This document shows, in pieces, positions 55,330 to 64,000 of a DNA stretch of 64,000 bases. Position numbers and translations under genes: made by a program. The stretch comes from Lacticigenium naphthae DSM 19658 (GTDB lineage: Bacteria; Bacillota; Bacilli; Lactobacillales; Carnobacteriaceae_A). The stretch's first letter is position 1; every line of letters begins with the position of its first letter. Below the pieces are notes generated by a model. The model saw nothing but the letters and a program-made list of their open reading frames with translations. It was not told the origin of the DNA and did no database searches. The stretch spans positions 434,001 through 498,000 of the forward strand of contig NZ_AUEG01000001.1 in NCBI RefSeq assembly GCF_000425865.1, given 5' to 3'.

Positions 55330-55371
55330 ACCCTTCTAAGTGGTAGCCTTGGGAAAGGGGCAAATCTGACG
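55330..55371 (-). promoter_or_regulatory. Conserved RNA hairpin, copy C
   Basis: Minus strand: CGTCAGATTT, a CCCTT/AAGGG stem (55355-55359 with 55331-55335), loop GGCTACCA. It overlaps the last codons and TAG of the sigma-like gene. Unlike copies A and B the stem does not contain the next gene's ribosome binding site. Confidence 0.7.
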
Positions 55372-55932
55372 ATTCTGATATTCTTCTTGTAATTTTTTTG
55401 TTGCTCTCTTTAATTTCTGGGTGATGTTATTCTCATCTGCACCTATGGAGTTGGCATATTCACGTATTGGGATTCCGTCGATACGGACTGCAATAAAGGC
55501 CTCTGCCCATTCTGGTTTCTTGGAAAGAGTTTTGCGGATCCAATCGCAAATGACCTCGCATTCATAATCTCTACTGCGTGTTTCATCATCAGAGGTGGTA
55601 CAGAGATAATCCATGATGTTAAAAGACTCATCATCTGGTTCACCCTGAACATATCCCCTCTTGCCATTTGATTTTTTCATCTTGGGATTAGGGTCAATCC
55701 GCCTTGTTTCCCTCCGCCAACCGTTATATTCTTTGGAGTTCAACAGGTCAAACATCTCTTGTACAGTTTGACAACGCTTGATTTCTTCTTTCTTCTCAGG
55801 CTTAGCCTCCGCAAGACGCTGCTCATAATCGATGTCCAGCATTACGCTGTAATCTCCATCTGGAATTTCAATTGTGGTGTAGTTTTTGTTACCGTTCTTG
55901 ATGTTGTCCTCATACAATACTTTAATTTTCAT
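55336..55932 (-). CDS. Sigma-factor-like early protein
   Basis: A 198-aa protein. The N-terminal part (MKIKVLYEDNIKNGNKNYTT, IEIPDGDYSVMLDIDYEQRL) is typical of a phage/ICE protein annotated 'sigma-70 family' or 'RNA polymerase subunit'. The C-terminal part has CDWIRKTLSKKPEWAEAFIA and GIPIREYANSIGADENNITQ, a region-4-like HTH. ATG 55932 follows AAGGAGTACAAA; upstream in-frame ATGs lie in the structured leader. As the first early gene with a terminator-bearing leader it may be the operon's control point. Confidence 0.75.
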   Translation of the reverse strand: MKIKVLYEDNIKNGNKNYTTIEIPDGDYSVMLDIDYEQRLAEAKPEKKEEIKRCQTVQEMFDLLNSKEYNGWRRETRRIDPNPKMKKSNGKRGYVQGEPDDESFNIMDYLCTTSDDETRSRDYECEVICDWIRKTLSKKPEWAEAFIAVRIDGIPIREYANSIGADENNITQKLKRATKKLQEEYQNRQICPFPKATT

Positions 55933-55971
55933 TTTGTACTCCTTTCCGTCCTGGCATTGACGGCGGAATAC

Positions 55972-56005
55972 AAAAAGAGCCTGTGGAGAAGATGACCACA
56001 GACTC
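55972..56005 (-). terminator. Terminator in the leader of the sigma-like gene
   Basis: GAGTCTGTGG and CCACAGGCTC form a 10-bp stem followed by TTTTTG on the minus strand, 40 bp before the ATG. Flanking GCGGA and TCCGC could pair outside it. Confidence 0.8.
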
Positions 56006-56008
56006 CGC

Positions 56009-56125
56009 ATGTCCTAAAAATGGGCACACGAAATCACGGTGGGTGCATCCTCATTCCAAATACAGTCTTTATCACTGTATTCTGAACTCTTATGCATCCC
56101 GCCGTCCGTATGCGCACTAGGACAT
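56009..56125 (-). ncRNA. Long imperfect RNA hairpin upstream of the sigma-like gene
   Basis: The minus strand folds into one extended structure: ATGTCCTA (56118-56125) with TAGGACAT (56009-56016); GCATACG with CGTGTGC; ACGG with CCGT; GGG with CCC; TGCAT with ATGCA; and AATACAGT (56074-56081) with ACTGTATT (56059-56066) around GATAAAG. A terminator follows. GACGGCGG in the 5' arm (56099-56106) can alternatively pair with CCGCCGTC (55959-55966) beyond that terminator. Confidence 0.7.
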
Positions 56126-56160
56126 TGAGATTAATTTTGTTGATTAATACCTTTGAGGAA

Positions 56161-56215: not shown

Positions 56216-56359
56216 CTACTTCTTTTTGCTTTGTTTCGTTTGACTTAAAGCACTGCCAGCAACTGATTTAGATTGCTTGCTATAACGTCCATCACTAAGA
56301 ATTTTGCTTGCTTTTGATGCAACTCTTTTAGATGTTTGCTTTGTATTACGCTTGGCCAT
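56216..56359 (-). CDS. Small basic protein (47 aa)
   Basis: From ATG 56357-56359, after AGGAGGTAGCGCAA, the frame reads MAKRNTKQTSKRVASKASKI, LSDGRYSKQSKSVAGSALSQ and a Lys-rich end, stopping with TAG at 56216-56218. Nearly half the residues are Lys, Arg, Ser or Thr. I recall similar 45-50-aa proteins of unknown function on mobile elements and beside defence genes. The strong ribosome binding site and conservation argue that it is real. It lies between the early leader and the ABC-3C operon. Confidence 0.75.
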   Translation of the reverse strand: MAKRNTKQTSKRVASKASKILSDGRYSKQSKSVAGSALSQTKQSKKK

Positions 56360-56638: not shown

Positions 56639-57649
56639 ATGCTCTTTAGTGAATTTGCGAATATACTTTATAAACACAGTGACACGTCATATAAGCCACA
56701 TGAATTTTTTCTGTCGCTTTTTGATAACATTATGAGAGATCCTCAAACGGTGGAGGAGATAAAACAATCAAAGGAAAGTAAATACAACCCCTTTGACTCT
56801 CTTGCTCCGGATTCTTTGGATCGGTATTTTAAAGGTACTCTCCCACTAAGTAAGAGAAATGTACATAAAGTTATTAGCAGAAAAGATACAGATAAATTTG
56901 CAGATTACATAAATACAATAAATGAGCATAATCAAATGGCTATTGAAGATGAAATCAAAGCAATGATTCCAAACTTCAATCCTGATGAGGTTTTAGGGTA
57001 TGCTTGTGCTGATTTATTTCTTCAAATCCTAGATGATATTTATGAAGGTAGAGAATCTAAAGAATCATCTAGCATTAATGTTTCGAATAATCCACCCTCC
57101 GCTTCGAAATTAACTTCCTTACCTTCCCAAACTATTTATTATGATGAATCAGATGGAAAATTACATATTGGGGATGTTAAAATATCTATTCCTAAAGAAA
57201 TTGAACCCCCGCAAGATATTGCTCCAGAAGAAGAAAGATATGTCTGTGAGCTACTTGCAGCTTATGCAGAAGCTATAAAATCTGGTGACTTATCAAAATC
57301 TGATTTAGAGTCTTTACCCAGAAAATATAAAAGGAACTTCTCTGATCAACGAATTAATTATTATAGTGCATTACGTATTGACCGTTTTATTAGAGAATCC
57401 CTTGATAAAGGTGAGGAGCACTCAAAGAAATGGAAATCTGAAACGCATGATTATATTAAAGATACCTTATGGGATGATTATGACGATGGATACAAGCGGC
57501 TGTTAACAGTAATGAAAAAGGTAGTAGATTGCTCTACCACATCTGCTGTCGACAGTATTCAAAATCTTATTGGCCCAAAAGAAAAGAAAGGAACCTGTCA
57601 CTTATTGGTCAACGACGGTTACGTTCGTTGGGTGGATGAAGATGAATGA
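56639..57649 (+). CDS. ABC-three-component (ABC-3C) system, CTD-bearing protein
   Basis: A 336-aa protein, first of the defence-like operon. Residues 1-150 form a helical domain (FANILYKHSDTSYKPHEFFL) that may be the effector or sensor. After a Ser/Pro-rich linker, the C-terminal ~150 residues match the ABC-3C C-terminal domain: ERYVCELLAAYAEAIKSGDL, QRINYYSALRIDRFIRESLD, and the final GTCHLLVNDGYVRWV, which I recognise as the family's hallmark. ABC-3C systems are predicted anti-mobile-element systems. GGAGGTG precedes the ATG. Confidence 0.8.
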   Translation: MLFSEFANILYKHSDTSYKPHEFFLSLFDNIMRDPQTVEEIKQSKESKYNPFDSLAPDSLDRYFKGTLPLSKRNVHKVISRKDTDKFADYINTINEHNQMAIEDEIKAMIPNFNPDEVLGYACADLFLQILDDIYEGRESKESSSINVSNNPPSASKLTSLPSQTIYYDESDGKLHIGDVKISIPKEIEPPQDIAPEEERYVCELLAAYAEAIKSGDLSKSDLESLPRKYKRNFSDQRINYYSALRIDRFIRESLDKGEEHSKKWKSETHDYIKDTLWDDYDDGYKRLLTVMKKVVDCSTTSAVDSIQNLIGPKEKKGTCHLLVNDGYVRWVDEDE

Positions 57650-58094
57650 CAAAGTTTTTAATACTGAATTTGAAATATCTATGAGGTTGTTGCTTGTCTT
57701 ATCTCAATCTGAAAAGAAAAGGCTCACATTCGATAGCCTAGTAACAGCAGATTTTATTTCAAATTACTCAAAAGAGTTCGGACTATCTCATAGCAATCTT
57801 CACGGTGAAAATGAATTTAGTTTTTCTGAATTCTCTGCAAGAAGAGCATTAGCACAAAAAGCTATAAAACAGCTTGTGCTTGAAAACTTAGTAAAGGTTT
57901 CTTATTCAAATGATGGCTTTAAATACTCTATCACGGAACGTGGACAGGCCTTAAGTAATTCTTTGGCTTCTGATTATGCCACTGAATATAGATTATATGC
58001 TCAAAAAGCTATTGTTTATATGAGTTCAAAAAATGAAAAAGAGCTTCTAAATTTAATTACTCGAGAAGCCTCTAAGTCATTAAGGAAGGGGTAA
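57642..58094 (+). CDS. ABC-3C system middle component
   Basis: A 150-aa protein. FEISMRLLLVLSQSEKKRLT, then SEFSARRALAQKAIKQLVLE and VSYSNDGFKYSITERGQALS form a winged-helix domain as in the 'middle component' of ABC-3C systems, thought to bridge effector and ATPase. I start at ATG 57642, which overlaps the upstream stop by 8 bp; an earlier in-frame ATG lies deep inside the first gene. The next gene starts five bases after its stop. The number of the MC subfamily cannot be told. Confidence 0.8.
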   Translation: MNDKVFNTEFEISMRLLLVLSQSEKKRLTFDSLVTADFISNYSKEFGLSHSNLHGENEFSFSEFSARRALAQKAIKQLVLENLVKVSYSNDGFKYSITERGQALSNSLASDYATEYRLYAQKAIVYMSSKNEKELLNLITREASKSLRKG

Positions 58095-58099
58095 CTTAT

Positions 58100-59929
58100 A
58101 TGGCATTTTATATTACTAAAGTAACAGCAGCTGGCACAAGTAAGCCTCCCGCTACAATAACTTTTAATAAGGGATTGAACATAATTTGTGGTGTTTCCGA
58201 TTCTGGAAAGACCTGCGTATTAAAATGCATACAATTTGCTATGGGTGTAATTAAGAAACCTTTTGAAAAAGAACAAACGGGATATGAAAGTGTCAACCTA
58301 GATATACTGACTTCAGAAGGCTCTCTCCATATTTCACGAACAGTTGGGAAAAATGCAGTAAATGTAGTTTCCGAAATATCTACAATTGATGGTGGCGACT
58401 ATGATATTGAATATAAAAGCAACGGGAATAAAAACCCTGTCTTAAATGAACTTTGGCTTAAACTAATTGGCATCGAAAAACTGCCAATGATAATAAAAAA
58501 TCAAGATTTTGCTAGACAACGTCTCTCCTGGAAAACTCTTTTGAGACTGTTTTGGTTAAAAGAACAAGAAATTGAAAATCCAAAATCGGTGCTTTTACCT
58601 TCAACGCCTACTCAAAATCCTTATTTTTTTGCCTCCCTTCTATACCTTCTCACAGGAAATGAATTTCCAGACATGGAGGAACATGATAAGGATGAAATCA
58701 GCAAAGCCAAAAAGGATGCTGTTCGTCAATTTGTAAACGGTAGAATTTCTCATATGTCTAAAAAGAGAGAAGAACTACAAAAAGCATTATCGGCCTATGG
58801 CGATTTAGATGTTGAAGAGGAAATGCAAAAATTAATTGATAACCTTTCTGCAACAGAATCTGCTATCGCTGCAGCCACAGAAGAAAGTAAAGATTTACTA
58901 GGTACTTTACTAAACTTAAAGGAGATAGAAGCAGAAAACCAAGTTACTCATTCTCACTTTCAGTCACTGAAAAGTCAATATACAGCTGATATTAAAAGAC
59001 TTTCATTTATTGTGGATGGAGAGGTACACTTACACTCTGTTGGTGAGAATAAAAAATGTCCTTTTTGTGAGGGTAATATACGTCCAACAGAGAGAAAGTC
59101 TTATATTGAGGCATCAAAAGCTGAACTTAATCGTATTATTACACAATTGCAAGGCTTGTCAGAGAGCGAAAAAGATGTCATTACATCTTTAAATGAAGTT
59201 CGTGGAAAAATTAATCATCTTGAAAGCCAAAGATCTGACATTGAAAAATTAATCGAAACCGAGCTTACTCCACAATCCAATAAACTAAGAGAAGGAATAC
59301 AACAATATCGCTCTTATGTACAATTGCAACAAGAATCGGCTGTACTGCAAAGTGTTTCTCAAGACTGGATTGTGGAGTTACAAAAACAAGAAAGTGATAG
59401 TTCAGACAAACTAAAATTCAAACCAAAAGAACATTATCCTGTTGATTTCAATACACGCATAGATGAAATAGCTTATTCAATTTTAGTTGACTGTAAATAT
59501 GAGAATTTGAATACAGCCCATTTCAATATGGGTACATTTGATTTAGAAATAAACGGCTATGCAAAAGAAGATAGTCACGGTAAAGGTTATTGGGCTTTTA
59601 TAAATACCATTGTAGGATTAACTTTCAGGCAGTATTTACAAGAAGATGCTGTTTATAAGCCAGGGCTTTTTGTAGTAGATACACCTTTATTAGGTTTAGA
59701 TCAAGGTGTTGATGATAATGCTCCTAATAGTATGAGAACCGCGTTATTCCAATACTTTATTGACAATCAATCCGAAGGACAGATGATAGTTGTAGAAAAC
59801 ACAAAGGATCTTCCAGAATTGGATTATGAAGCAAGTGGGGCGAAGGTCATAGAATTTACTCAAGACAAGTATAAAAGCAAGTATAAAGAAAGCCGTTATG
59901 GTTTTTTACATGATGTATATAGTAATTAG
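58100..59929 (+). CDS. ABC-3C ATPase, DUF3732 Rad50-like with zinc hook
   Basis: A 609-aa SMC/Rad50-like ATPase of the DUF3732 type. Walker A is GVSDSGKTC (31-39). Coiled coils flank a zinc hook, Cys320 and Cys323 in KKCPFCEGN. The Walker B region is GLFVVDTPLLGLD (522-534). The coiled coil is short compared with Rad50. It is expected to form dimers that sense or remodel DNA and, with the two upstream proteins, to trigger an effector response against invaders. An AAGGAAGGGG site lies 5-10 bases before the ATG. Confidence 0.88.
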   Translation: MAFYITKVTAAGTSKPPATITFNKGLNIICGVSDSGKTCVLKCIQFAMGVIKKPFEKEQTGYESVNLDILTSEGSLHISRTVGKNAVNVVSEISTIDGGDYDIEYKSNGNKNPVLNELWLKLIGIEKLPMIIKNQDFARQRLSWKTLLRLFWLKEQEIENPKSVLLPSTPTQNPYFFASLLYLLTGNEFPDMEEHDKDEISKAKKDAVRQFVNGRISHMSKKREELQKALSAYGDLDVEEEMQKLIDNLSATESAIAAATEESKDLLGTLLNLKEIEAENQVTHSHFQSLKSQYTADIKRLSFIVDGEVHLHSVGENKKCPFCEGNIRPTERKSYIEASKAELNRIITQLQGLSESEKDVITSLNEVRGKINHLESQRSDIEKLIETELTPQSNKLREGIQQYRSYVQLQQESAVLQSVSQDWIVELQKQESDSSDKLKFKPKEHYPVDFNTRIDEIAYSILVDCKYENLNTAHFNMGTFDLEINGYAKEDSHGKGYWAFINTIVGLTFRQYLQEDAVYKPGLFVVDTPLLGLDQGVDDNAPNSMRTALFQYFIDNQSEGQMIVVENTKDLPELDYEASGAKVIEFTQDKYKSKYKESRYGFLHDVYSN

Positions 59930-60409: not shown

Positions 60410-63382
60410 CTATTTCACTAATTTTCTTATCATGGTTACGATGTCATCTTTTTTCATTTGCTTCTCAAATGATACGTTTAATCCATCTTCCTTTAAAGTT
60501 TCGAAGAATTTCTTTGCAGATTGAATCCTCATTTTTTCGTCATTTCTCAATCCACTGTCTTTTTTAACATCTTTTGTTTCTACGATAAAATTAATAATAT
60601 GTTCTCCTGACGGCTTCTTTAATACATACATAAAGTCGGGGCTTGTAGTTCCTCCATAATATAAAGGCACTCTAATACTGCTTCTTGGTATTTTCCCAAA
60701 GACTACGACTTCATCAATCCCGCTATTTTCAATAGTTTCACGTTCCTTGGGTGAGTCATATACAAAGCTTTCATAGAGAAATTTCGCAGGAACTGATAAG
60801 CTATCCGAGCGCATAATACCAACAGATCCTTGTGGAATAGCCTTCTTAACATTTCCGTCAATATCCGTTAACGAAGTTTCTGTAGTGCTTACTTCCAGCT
60901 TTTTATAGCTAAATCTTTTCATAAAACTAGATTCTAGCCATTCTTGGAATTTCGAGATAAAATTGTGCAGGCTAGTTTTATTGAACAACTTTGCATTAAT
61001 AGGGTGCTTCAAGTTATACTCGATAATATTACTGTGCATTATTTCCATAGGAATACCCGTATTTGACTGTAGCCGTCTTAAAAACTCTCCATAAGGCATA
61101 GAAGAATCAATTACATGGTACCCAGCAGTTGATTCCTTTATTTCAACTAAACCATCTTCACCTTTTGTCGTCCGCTTTTCTTTCGCATGTATAAGCTGTT
61201 CTTCAAAGATGTCATTTTCAAGAATTGACTTCACCGCATTTCCCAACTCTTCATCATTGATATCATCTAATGTTAGATAATATTTCTGATTGATTTTGCT
61301 CCACAGTTCCTTTATCTCAGAGAATCTCTCTTCTCTAATTTTAACCTCTCCTAGTTTTTTCTTGGTTGCATCAATAACTTTTCCTTGTTGTAGTCCAGTA
61401 TTAAACTCAGGGTATTTGTCCATCATTTCAAGACGTTTGTCTTCAATAATGTTCTGATCCTTGTCTACATAACCACCAATAAGCAATTCAGCGAAAAGAA
61501 CATTCTCATCGACCCCTCGGTCTTTCGCAACTTTAGATAAAACTCCACGAATCGAAGTTATGGTTCTTACATCTGCATTTATTTCATTAATAAGATTTTC
61601 CGCAAACTTTTTCTCAGTAAAGTCGATAATATAATTTAAATAAAACTGTTCTCCGGATATTCGATTACCAAATTCGTCAACTGGTAACCTTAGACCTCTA
61701 CCGACTTCTTGTAATTTACTAATCTCACTCCCACTTGAACGCAGCTTAGCAATTGTAAATACATTCGGATTATCCCAACCTTCTCTAAGTGTCCATTTAG
61801 AGAAAATAAACCTCATCGTATTCCATTGTTCCTCTTCATTCTTAAAGGATATCAACGACTCTTTGTCACGAAGAATTTTATCAACTTCTTCCTGAATATC
61901 TTCGTCAGCTTTTGAGTTATCTTCGGAGAAATAGCCTCCGTTTGTCTTTTTAATATCTTTTAATGAAGCTTCCAGATATTCTTTGTACTCGAGCATTCTT
62001 GATGATTTCTTATCTAACTGATCAATCTTTGCACATTCTTCCTGGAGTTTTTGAGTTAGTAGTTTTTCAAATGATATCCTTAATTTACCATCATTATCAG
62101 AACCTCGATATGAATAAATGCTATCGATAAAGAACAAACTCAGAGTCTTAATTTTATTTCCCCTAAGAAAATTCTCTTTTTCTTTTACAAAATGGGCATC
62201 TATAGCTTGTTTCATCATTAGTTCTTGATAGGTTGTTCCATATATTGAAGAATAGATAATGTCTCCAACTGCAATAACATGACCATTGGAAAGAGTTATA
62301 CCATTACTTATATCACAATCGTCACTTTTACCAATACTTTCAACACTAATTCCTGTAAAAGACTCGTCTATAATGCCTAAGCTATCTCCAGGTACTAAAT
62401 CAAATGTTTTTTTAGTCTTCTCATTTCTAAAAACGCATGATTTAGGCCTATGAGACACTTGCATCAATTTAATATTCACATCATCAGCATCAGCATCTTC
62501 TAATGTTTGAACGGCTACTCCTTTTACTAGCTGATCATTGAAAGCTTCACATGCACCTAAATTGTAAACCAAATTGTTATAATCTTTTTCCTCACTTTTT
62601 CCTACATAAGGAAAAGTAGCACCAAATCTAATGACACACTGTGGTTTAATCTTATCTATTAAGCATTGATAAGCTTTATTCTCCCTTTTAAATCTATGCG
62701 GTTCATCAATAATAACGATAGGACGAGTTTCTTCTAGTGCTTTATATGGCTGCGTAAATTCACCCAATAAAGTTTGATCATAATCATCTTTTTCCATCGT
62801 TGCCTTTGATAGTAGCATTTTATCGGTTGTAAGTAATACATGTACCCGGTTTTTCTCTAATCTAGTACCTCTTGCATATTCAGCGATTGCACTTGGAAAC
62901 ATCTTTCTTCCTGATGATTTATTCTTTTGAGCATTTAACACTTGAAGTTTTAATGACACATTTGGATAAATGTCAGCAAAATGGATTTTCGAGTAGTTTG
63001 CTTCAATAAAATTCTTTGTTCCTTCTTTGATCGGTGTCGATGGTACAAGTAGGATAAACTTATTAAACCCATACTGCCTATTTAATTCATACATTAACCT
63101 TGTGTATACATAAGTTTTACCGGTACCAGTTTCTAATTTAGCATCAATACCAAGAATGCCATCCTCTACTGTTCTTTGCATACTTTTAGGGATAGGATTA
63201 AGGTCCTCTACGTCACCATTCCAAATTTCTGAAATATTTCTTGAAATAGCCTCATCCTGAATATCAATAATAGGATTTTGATGTATGGCATTAGTGCTAG
63301 AAATTCGAACATCTTCCAGCACTTTGCATATTGCATTGATAGCATCAGTTTGATGAGGCAGATGTTTTAATTGTATTTGCAT
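60410..63382 (-). CDS. Type III restriction enzyme, Res subunit
   Basis: A 990-aa Res protein. The helicase part starts MQIQLKHLPHQTDAINAICK and has DAKLETGTGKTYVYTRLMYE (motif I), IVIIDEPHRFKRENKAY (II, Asp-Glu-Pro-His), FTIAKLRSSGSEISKLQEVG and RGLRLPVDE (VI). The C-terminal nuclease has SPDFMYVLKKPSG and FIVETKDVKKDSGLR, the PD-ExK site. It cuts unmethylated DNA with its Mod partner. ATG 63382, seven bases after GAGAGG, is preferred. It starts two bases after the mod stop. Confidence 0.93.
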   Translation of the reverse strand: MQIQLKHLPHQTDAINAICKVLEDVRISSTNAIHQNPIIDIQDEAISRNISEIWNGDVEDLNPIPKSMQRTVEDGILGIDAKLETGTGKTYVYTRLMYELNRQYGFNKFILLVPSTPIKEGTKNFIEANYSKIHFADIYPNVSLKLQVLNAQKNKSSGRKMFPSAIAEYARGTRLEKNRVHVLLTTDKMLLSKATMEKDDYDQTLLGEFTQPYKALEETRPIVIIDEPHRFKRENKAYQCLIDKIKPQCVIRFGATFPYVGKSEEKDYNNLVYNLGACEAFNDQLVKGVAVQTLEDADADDVNIKLMQVSHRPKSCVFRNEKTKKTFDLVPGDSLGIIDESFTGISVESIGKSDDCDISNGITLSNGHVIAVGDIIYSSIYGTTYQELMMKQAIDAHFVKEKENFLRGNKIKTLSLFFIDSIYSYRGSDNDGKLRISFEKLLTQKLQEECAKIDQLDKKSSRMLEYKEYLEASLKDIKKTNGGYFSEDNSKADEDIQEEVDKILRDKESLISFKNEEEQWNTMRFIFSKWTLREGWDNPNVFTIAKLRSSGSEISKLQEVGRGLRLPVDEFGNRISGEQFYLNYIIDFTEKKFAENLINEINADVRTITSIRGVLSKVAKDRGVDENVLFAELLIGGYVDKDQNIIEDKRLEMMDKYPEFNTGLQQGKVIDATKKKLGEVKIREERFSEIKELWSKINQKYYLTLDDINDEELGNAVKSILENDIFEEQLIHAKEKRTTKGEDGLVEIKESTAGYHVIDSSMPYGEFLRRLQSNTGIPMEIMHSNIIEYNLKHPINAKLFNKTSLHNFISKFQEWLESSFMKRFSYKKLEVSTTETSLTDIDGNVKKAIPQGSVGIMRSDSLSVPAKFLYESFVYDSPKERETIENSGIDEVVVFGKIPRSSIRVPLYYGGTTSPDFMYVLKKPSGEHIINFIVETKDVKKDSGLRNDEKMRIQSAKKFFETLKEDGLNVSFEKQMKKDDIVTMIRKLVK

Positions 63383-63383
63383 A

Positions 63384-64000
63384 TCAATACCTCTCAATCA
63401 CTGTAATATTTTTGTTTTGTCTTAAATTTGCTATGTTCTTTTTTAGCTCATGAGACTGATTGAATGGCAAAGAGTAAGGATAAACAACTACTCTTGAAAT
63501 CATCAGTTCATTGTTCTCAATTTTTTTGATTAACTCCATAATATCTTCAGAAGTGATTCCTTCTTCAATAATGTACAATGAACCATCATGCAAATCAGCT
63601 TCATATGTCTTTAGCTTTATCTTCTCAGCTTTTGAACATAGCCCATATCCATCTTCGTTTAACCATGTAGATAGAATGGTTTCTTTTCCTGGAATGTTAT
63701 CAAATGAAAAAATATCTATCATATCTCCTAAAACTAACTCCTCAACAGGATTAAAATCCACTATCTTATCAAGTGTTTTTTGTTCTGGAGTGTTTAATTT
63801 ATAAAGCTTATATCCATAATCAATCCCCGCGTTGGTATTGGTTTTGATTTTTTCTGCTGCCTTCTCAATTCTATCCCTGCCAATTTCATCTATTGTACGG
63901 TAACCTGCTTGGTATGCTGGTTTATTTTCTTCTATGGCTTCAGGTAACTGAACCATAATAAATTTTCTTTTCCCATTGTCTTCGGCATTCATTTGCATAA
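63384..64000 (-). CDS. Type III methyltransferase Mod, C-terminal part
   Basis: Only the last ~204 codons are visible; the gene runs past the right edge. AEDNGKRKFIMVQLPEAIEE, YQAGYRTIDEIGRDRIEKAA and LNTPEQKTLDKIVDFNPVEE are typical of the Mod C-terminal region after the methylase domain. TSEDIMELIKKIENNELMIS closes the part bound by Res. The catalytic DPPY and SAM motifs lie outside the window. Mod methylates one strand of the recognition site and guides Res. Confidence 0.9.
   Translation of the reverse strand, partial: MQMNAEDNGKRKFIMVQLPEAIEENKPAYQAGYRTIDEIGRDRIEKAAEKIKTNTNAGIDYGYKLYKLNTPEQKTLDKIVDFNPVEELVLGDMIDIFSFDNIPGKETILSTWLNEDGYGLCSKAEKIKLKTYEADLHDGSLYIIEEGITSEDIMELIKKIENNELMISRVVVYPYSLPFNQSHELKKNIANLRQNKNITVIERY

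Follow-up and report, generated by a model that had tools for sequence, protein, structure and literature searches.

Switching of gene expression by a leader RNA is, in general, an already known kind of control. In translational riboswitches of the anti-SD/anti-anti-SD type, a sensor helix competes for the strand that hides or frees the ribosome-binding site. The Bacillus subtilis vmlR leader is reported to be a dual transcription and translation attenuator (PMC9226507), and the put RNA of phage HK022 is reported to suppress pausing and termination by itself (PMC9378689). Here we analysed a leader RNA in a 64,000-nucleotide stretch of Lacticigenium naphthae DSM 19658 (the window). It resembles the translational riboswitches in its predicted competition for the strand covering the ribosome site, but it has no matching aptamer or known ligand, and it holds inside the switch a terminator stem whose loop is a covarying partner. 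The vmlR leader and this one both combine a terminator with translation control; the phage leader differs in lacking a conserved leader peptide and in lying in a phage operon, and it has no known structural relation to vmlR. The put RNA and the present leader have no known sequence relation; both are conserved structured RNAs that open phage early transcription ahead of terminators, but this leader has a strand S and the ribosome site as conserved parts.

The leader lies on the minus strand ahead of the first early gene of the prophage. Folding predicted a long hairpin at exactly 56125-56009, the same limits as had been proposed from the sequence-only reading, followed by a stem-loop at 56006-55976, then CUUUUUGU, and, as a third element, a hairpin covering the ribosome-binding site. 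The folding z score was -8.2 against 200 dinucleotide shuffles, none of which folded as well. The description of the long hairpin as nearly continuous held for its upper part: in homologues the upper hairpin, the main stems at the ribosome site and the stem of the terminator are 81-94% paired. It is weakly supported for the lower stems, which are only 63-73% paired, and no pair of the lower helix ranked well by mutual information among 39 sequences.

The family begins with a conserved unpaired UCUCA (56126-56130), of which UCUC is nearly invariant in an alignment of 39 leaders (alignment A2). Next comes a 5' dyad, GUCC...GGAC around the self-complementary centre UGCGCA (56104-56123, P1), supported by pair conservation with UA/CG swaps. 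It overlaps arm5 (56093-56106), which can pair with arm3 (56041-56052) to form P2 or with S (55959-55972). The apical hairpin P3 (56053-56087) shows changes on both sides in 11 of 13 pairs. The lower 3' strand (56011-56034) contains a U-tract and belongs to the weakly supported lower stem. The ribosome-binding strand (55935-55950, SD in the pair names) carries AAAGGAG at 55945-55939, and its main stem with S is 94.3% paired, with both-side changes in 6 of 8 pairs.

The stem-loop at 55976-56006 had been read as a U-tailed terminator. Its upper stem is 92.9% paired with compensatory changes, its U-rich tail runs to 55972, and the 9 nt 3' of the stem are 61% U in homologues. The stem was missed by a simple terminator scan, which allows loops of up to 8 nt; the loop here has 9. 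We infer that the stem ends transcription.

An alternative pairing across the leader had been proposed from an octamer match, GACGGCGG with CCGCCGTC. The match is present (56106-56099 with 55966-55959), and its length was understated: arm5 and S pair over 14 bp, 56106-56093 with 55972-55959, with G-U pairs included. The CCGTC:GACGG complementarity beside the ribosome site was also found, and it belongs to a longer hairpin. Two further alternatives were absent from the earlier reading. In arm3, GAGGAUG (56052-56046) could pair with the terminator loop CAUCUUC (55994-55988), and the 5' GUCC (56123-56120) can take either a near GGAC (56107-56104) or a far GGAC (56014-56011) as partner.

We compared the duplex of each strand and its own partner with duplexes formed with strands of other phages, using 60 distinct leaders and 2000 permutations. 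The z scores were -12.0 for arm5:S, -13.7 for S:SD, -10.6 for arm3:terminator loop and -8.2 for arm5:arm3, and no permutation did as well in any of the four. The near and far GUCC:GGAC pairings also beat all 2000 permutations (far z -6.9). Pairings that were not proposed gave 0.0 (arm5:SD), -1.9 (arm3:S) and +2.1 (arm3:SD); a further control, arm5:terminator loop, gave -3.5, probably because arm3 is a shared partner of both. Among 25 deep representatives, whose windows were mostly cut by motif and in two cases (L183 and L124) mis-cut, arm5:S still reached z -8.2 (0/5000).

Pair counts in alignment A2, with slid and shuffled controls, agreed with these tests. The alternative structure was 90.5% paired versus 36-51% when slid, with both-side changes in 16 of 31 pairs (0/500 shuffles), and the main fold showed both-side changes in 40 of 71 pairs; kinship among the sequences inflates every shuffle-type control, and such counts are not to be read as probabilities. 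RNAalifold picked independently the near GUCC:GGAC hairpin, P2, P3, the terminator stem and S:SD. By mutual information, one arm5:S pair ranked 6th and two more were in the top 2% of 20706, most pairs being unremarkable; this ranking is noisy at 39 sequences and was dropped as a stand-alone test. Frequent G-C to G-U exchange (columns 45:202 and 49:199) argues that RNA, not DNA, is the conserved form. Homologues without compensatory changes had been named as what would speak against the alternative pairing; our results showed that it covaries. Mutually exclusive helices kept by compensatory change, the general mark of an attenuator or leader switch, are found here. By comparison of sequences, arm5, arm3 and S are each shown to have two conserved, mutually exclusive predicted partners.

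The two partners of each strand give two coherent states, {arm5:arm3, S:SD} and {arm5:S, arm3:terminator loop}. We consider it probable that the leader is a cis-acting RNA which opens or closes the early/replication operon in temperate phages of Firmicutes by swapping strands. In the OFF state, P2 and the terminator stem would form, and read-through RNA would have S on the ribosome-binding strand. In the ON state, arm5 would take S and free the ribosome-binding site, and the released arm3 would go to the terminator loop. The choice would fall to a factor acting on the P1-P2-P3 sensor domain, by stabilising or melting it; both the default state and the existence of an external trigger are inferred. 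Folding predicted capture of the ribosome site in one state only: the mean accessibility of its GG rose from 0.03 in the free ensemble to 0.40 with arm5:S enforced, and the gain exceeded 0.1 in 52 of 57 leaders. Enforcing arm5:S cost on average 9.4 kcal/mol in nested folding, so the ON state would need an unmodelled pseudoknot, co-transcriptional kinetics or a factor. Since S is transcribed after the terminator, arm5:S could not decide termination and would act on translation of the read-through RNA, while the terminator would supply a separate transcriptional gate. The terminator stem is compatible with both proposed states, and because arm3:terminator loop leaves it intact, the model is weaker on its transcriptional side. 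It is possible, though rather doubtful, that the RNA is an orphan switch which senses a ligand or dimerisation and sets early-operon expression (lysis versus lysogeny) in a candidate gut-phage order, perhaps with the always self-complementary 5' loop as its gauge of phage RNA dosage.

No named RNA family had been recognised in the leader, and an Rfam 15 search by covariance-model score at the gathering threshold was empty for the window; the leader at E up to 10 gave chance-level scores only, and 11 divergent homologues had no match. The family occurs in about 200 loci in prophages and phages of Bacilli and Clostridia. Blastn matched the leader to phages of Erysipelothrix (phi1605, 96.5%), Streptococcus (Javan630, 90.8%) and Ruminococcus (NatCom_38182, 75%). 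Viral contigs and GTDB genomes scanned for the downstream protein gave 182 leader sequences, some contigs being included twice, of which 61 are distinct. Among sampled genomes, 20 of 391 from Clostridia contained the RNA by a covariance model, as did 4 of 300 from Bacilli; two of these last four matches were weak or partial. A broader model, applied across the phylum, detected it in 11 genomes out of 398. Each of the 10 'Ca. Heliusvirales' records examined was positive for the RNA or for a match to the RNA or its gene; the covariance model accounts for most of them, a nucleotide or protein match alone for the others. Some relatives of the downstream gene had no model match; by eye, several of them have leaders laid out in a similar way that have diverged too far to score. 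A repeat or mobile RNA was rejected, with a single copy in the source genome and at most 3 per genome among those checked, and so was a plasmid-borne family, with no plasmid match for the window copy and one, on an 809-kb replicon, for a Clostridium-type copy. The family, the terminator loop as a partner and the phage setting are absent from Rfam 15 and from the open-access papers searched.

In the deposited phage records of L006 and L271-L273, small hypothetical CDSs lie within the RNA and are probably spurious. Upstream of the leader, a GATAGGCAG...CTGCCTATC hairpin (about 56198-56152, minus strand) and a 47-aa phrog_5079 gene (56216-56359, minus strand) recur in many relatives. Just beyond, LmuA, LmuC and LmuB make up a defence cassette of the Lamassu family, and a type III restriction-modification system is present in part (56639-59929, plus strand; 60410-63998, minus strand). 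In phi1605 this slot is occupied by a type IIS endonuclease and a RecD-like helicase, in Javan630 by an ATPase gene and in NatCom_11393 by restriction-modification genes; it looks like a hot spot for defence genes.

Conservation is higher in the leader than in the gene behind it (for example 89.7 versus 74.0% and 92.6 versus 76.5% of nucleotides), a point in favour of the strand-swapping reading. The same pattern, together with the terminator immediately after the leader and the long early operon behind it, is what would be expected if the nascent RNA modified RNA polymerase to read through this and later early-operon terminators, as HK022 put RNA does. The variety of genes that follow the RNA, including Rha directly in L234, would fit as well. 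However, such processive antitermination has no need for S or the covarying ribosome-site hairpin, both conserved in the representatives, and we consider it unlikely.

The first gene past the leader (55336-55932, minus strand) encodes a 198-aa sigma-70-region-4-like regulator (phrog_11138). It had been called sigma-like; the similarity to sigma-70 is weak, and no solved relative of the protein was found. Genes for Rha and a VapE-domain helicase-primase lie further downstream on the same strand. Across the family, the leader stands at the head of the early/replication operon, in most cases only a few bases ahead of a small gene of this kind, and named phages have it in front of their replication operons. 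The first proposal, that the leader is laid out like a riboswitch or an attenuator bound by protein and controls the first early gene, is supported in its layout: the alternative pairing covaries, and the leader precedes the first gene of the early operon in named phages. Because the same gene family directly follows in most loci, the sigma-like product might bind the folded leader and stop its own synthesis. However, at least five kinds of gene follow the RNA, nearly all with region-4-like C-termini, in L234 the Rha antirepressor gene follows it directly, and sigma-like genes with unrelated N-termini stand after the same RNA (L232, L235, L240-L242, L249, L250, L258-L262). An autogenous protein-binding leader would have one cognate product, and with several different genes downstream autoregulation by one product is very unlikely. 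The downstream regulators look mosaic, with two N-terminal types and interchangeable C-termini (alignment A1); in L264, by eye, a sigma-like N-terminus is joined to repeated deoxyxylulose-phosphate synthase-like pieces, possibly an assembly artefact.

The terminated leader might instead be a trans-acting small RNA, with the read-through switch secondary. To judge from the terminator-like stem, such an RNA would be discrete and stable, with a length of about 160 nt. However, complementarity of at least 11 nt elsewhere in the window is at chance (5 seen versus about 4.6 expected), and S and the ribosome site, which lie beyond the terminator, are conserved too; we consider this reading highly improbable.

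Of 39 sequences, 37-39 retain the near GUCC:GGAC pairing, with UA/CG swaps among them. The dyad centre is self-complementary in every intact representative (6-10 nt perfect), and its core tetramers differ, with at least six found (GCGC, GGCC, UGCA, AGCU, ACGU and CGCG). In a few sequences (e.g. L043, L044 and L110), the longest palindrome reported by the script lies off the dyad centre, which by eye is still self-complementary. This pattern in the aligned leaders points to symmetric recognition of the dyad, by RNA-RNA kissing or a DNA-binding dimer. A DNA operator or RNA dimerisation site whose binding drives the switch would explain a centre that is always self-complementary although its sequences differ. 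However, the half-site spacing varies (mostly 12-14 nt), a poor fit for one protein dimer, GUCC covaries with its far partner too, and the dyad makes up only about 20 of 200 nt; we give this explanation a slim chance. In the divergent L265, a 13-nt complementarity links the 5' strand GAGCCUGAUUACG with the strand that precedes a U-run, so the dyad there would compete directly with a terminator. Leader-peptide attenuation was rejected, since the ATGCAT ORF varies from 5 to 57 codons with its frame broken by indels and there is no conserved short ORF.

In conclusion, a widespread and heavily constrained RNA family missing from Rfam stands at the early-operon control point of many Firmicutes temperate phages. 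Under the strand-swapping reading, its covarying alternative partners predict which pairs of changes should break, and then restore, control. RNA-based early regulation in poorly studied gut phages is made directly testable, and the search for the trigger becomes a well-posed question.
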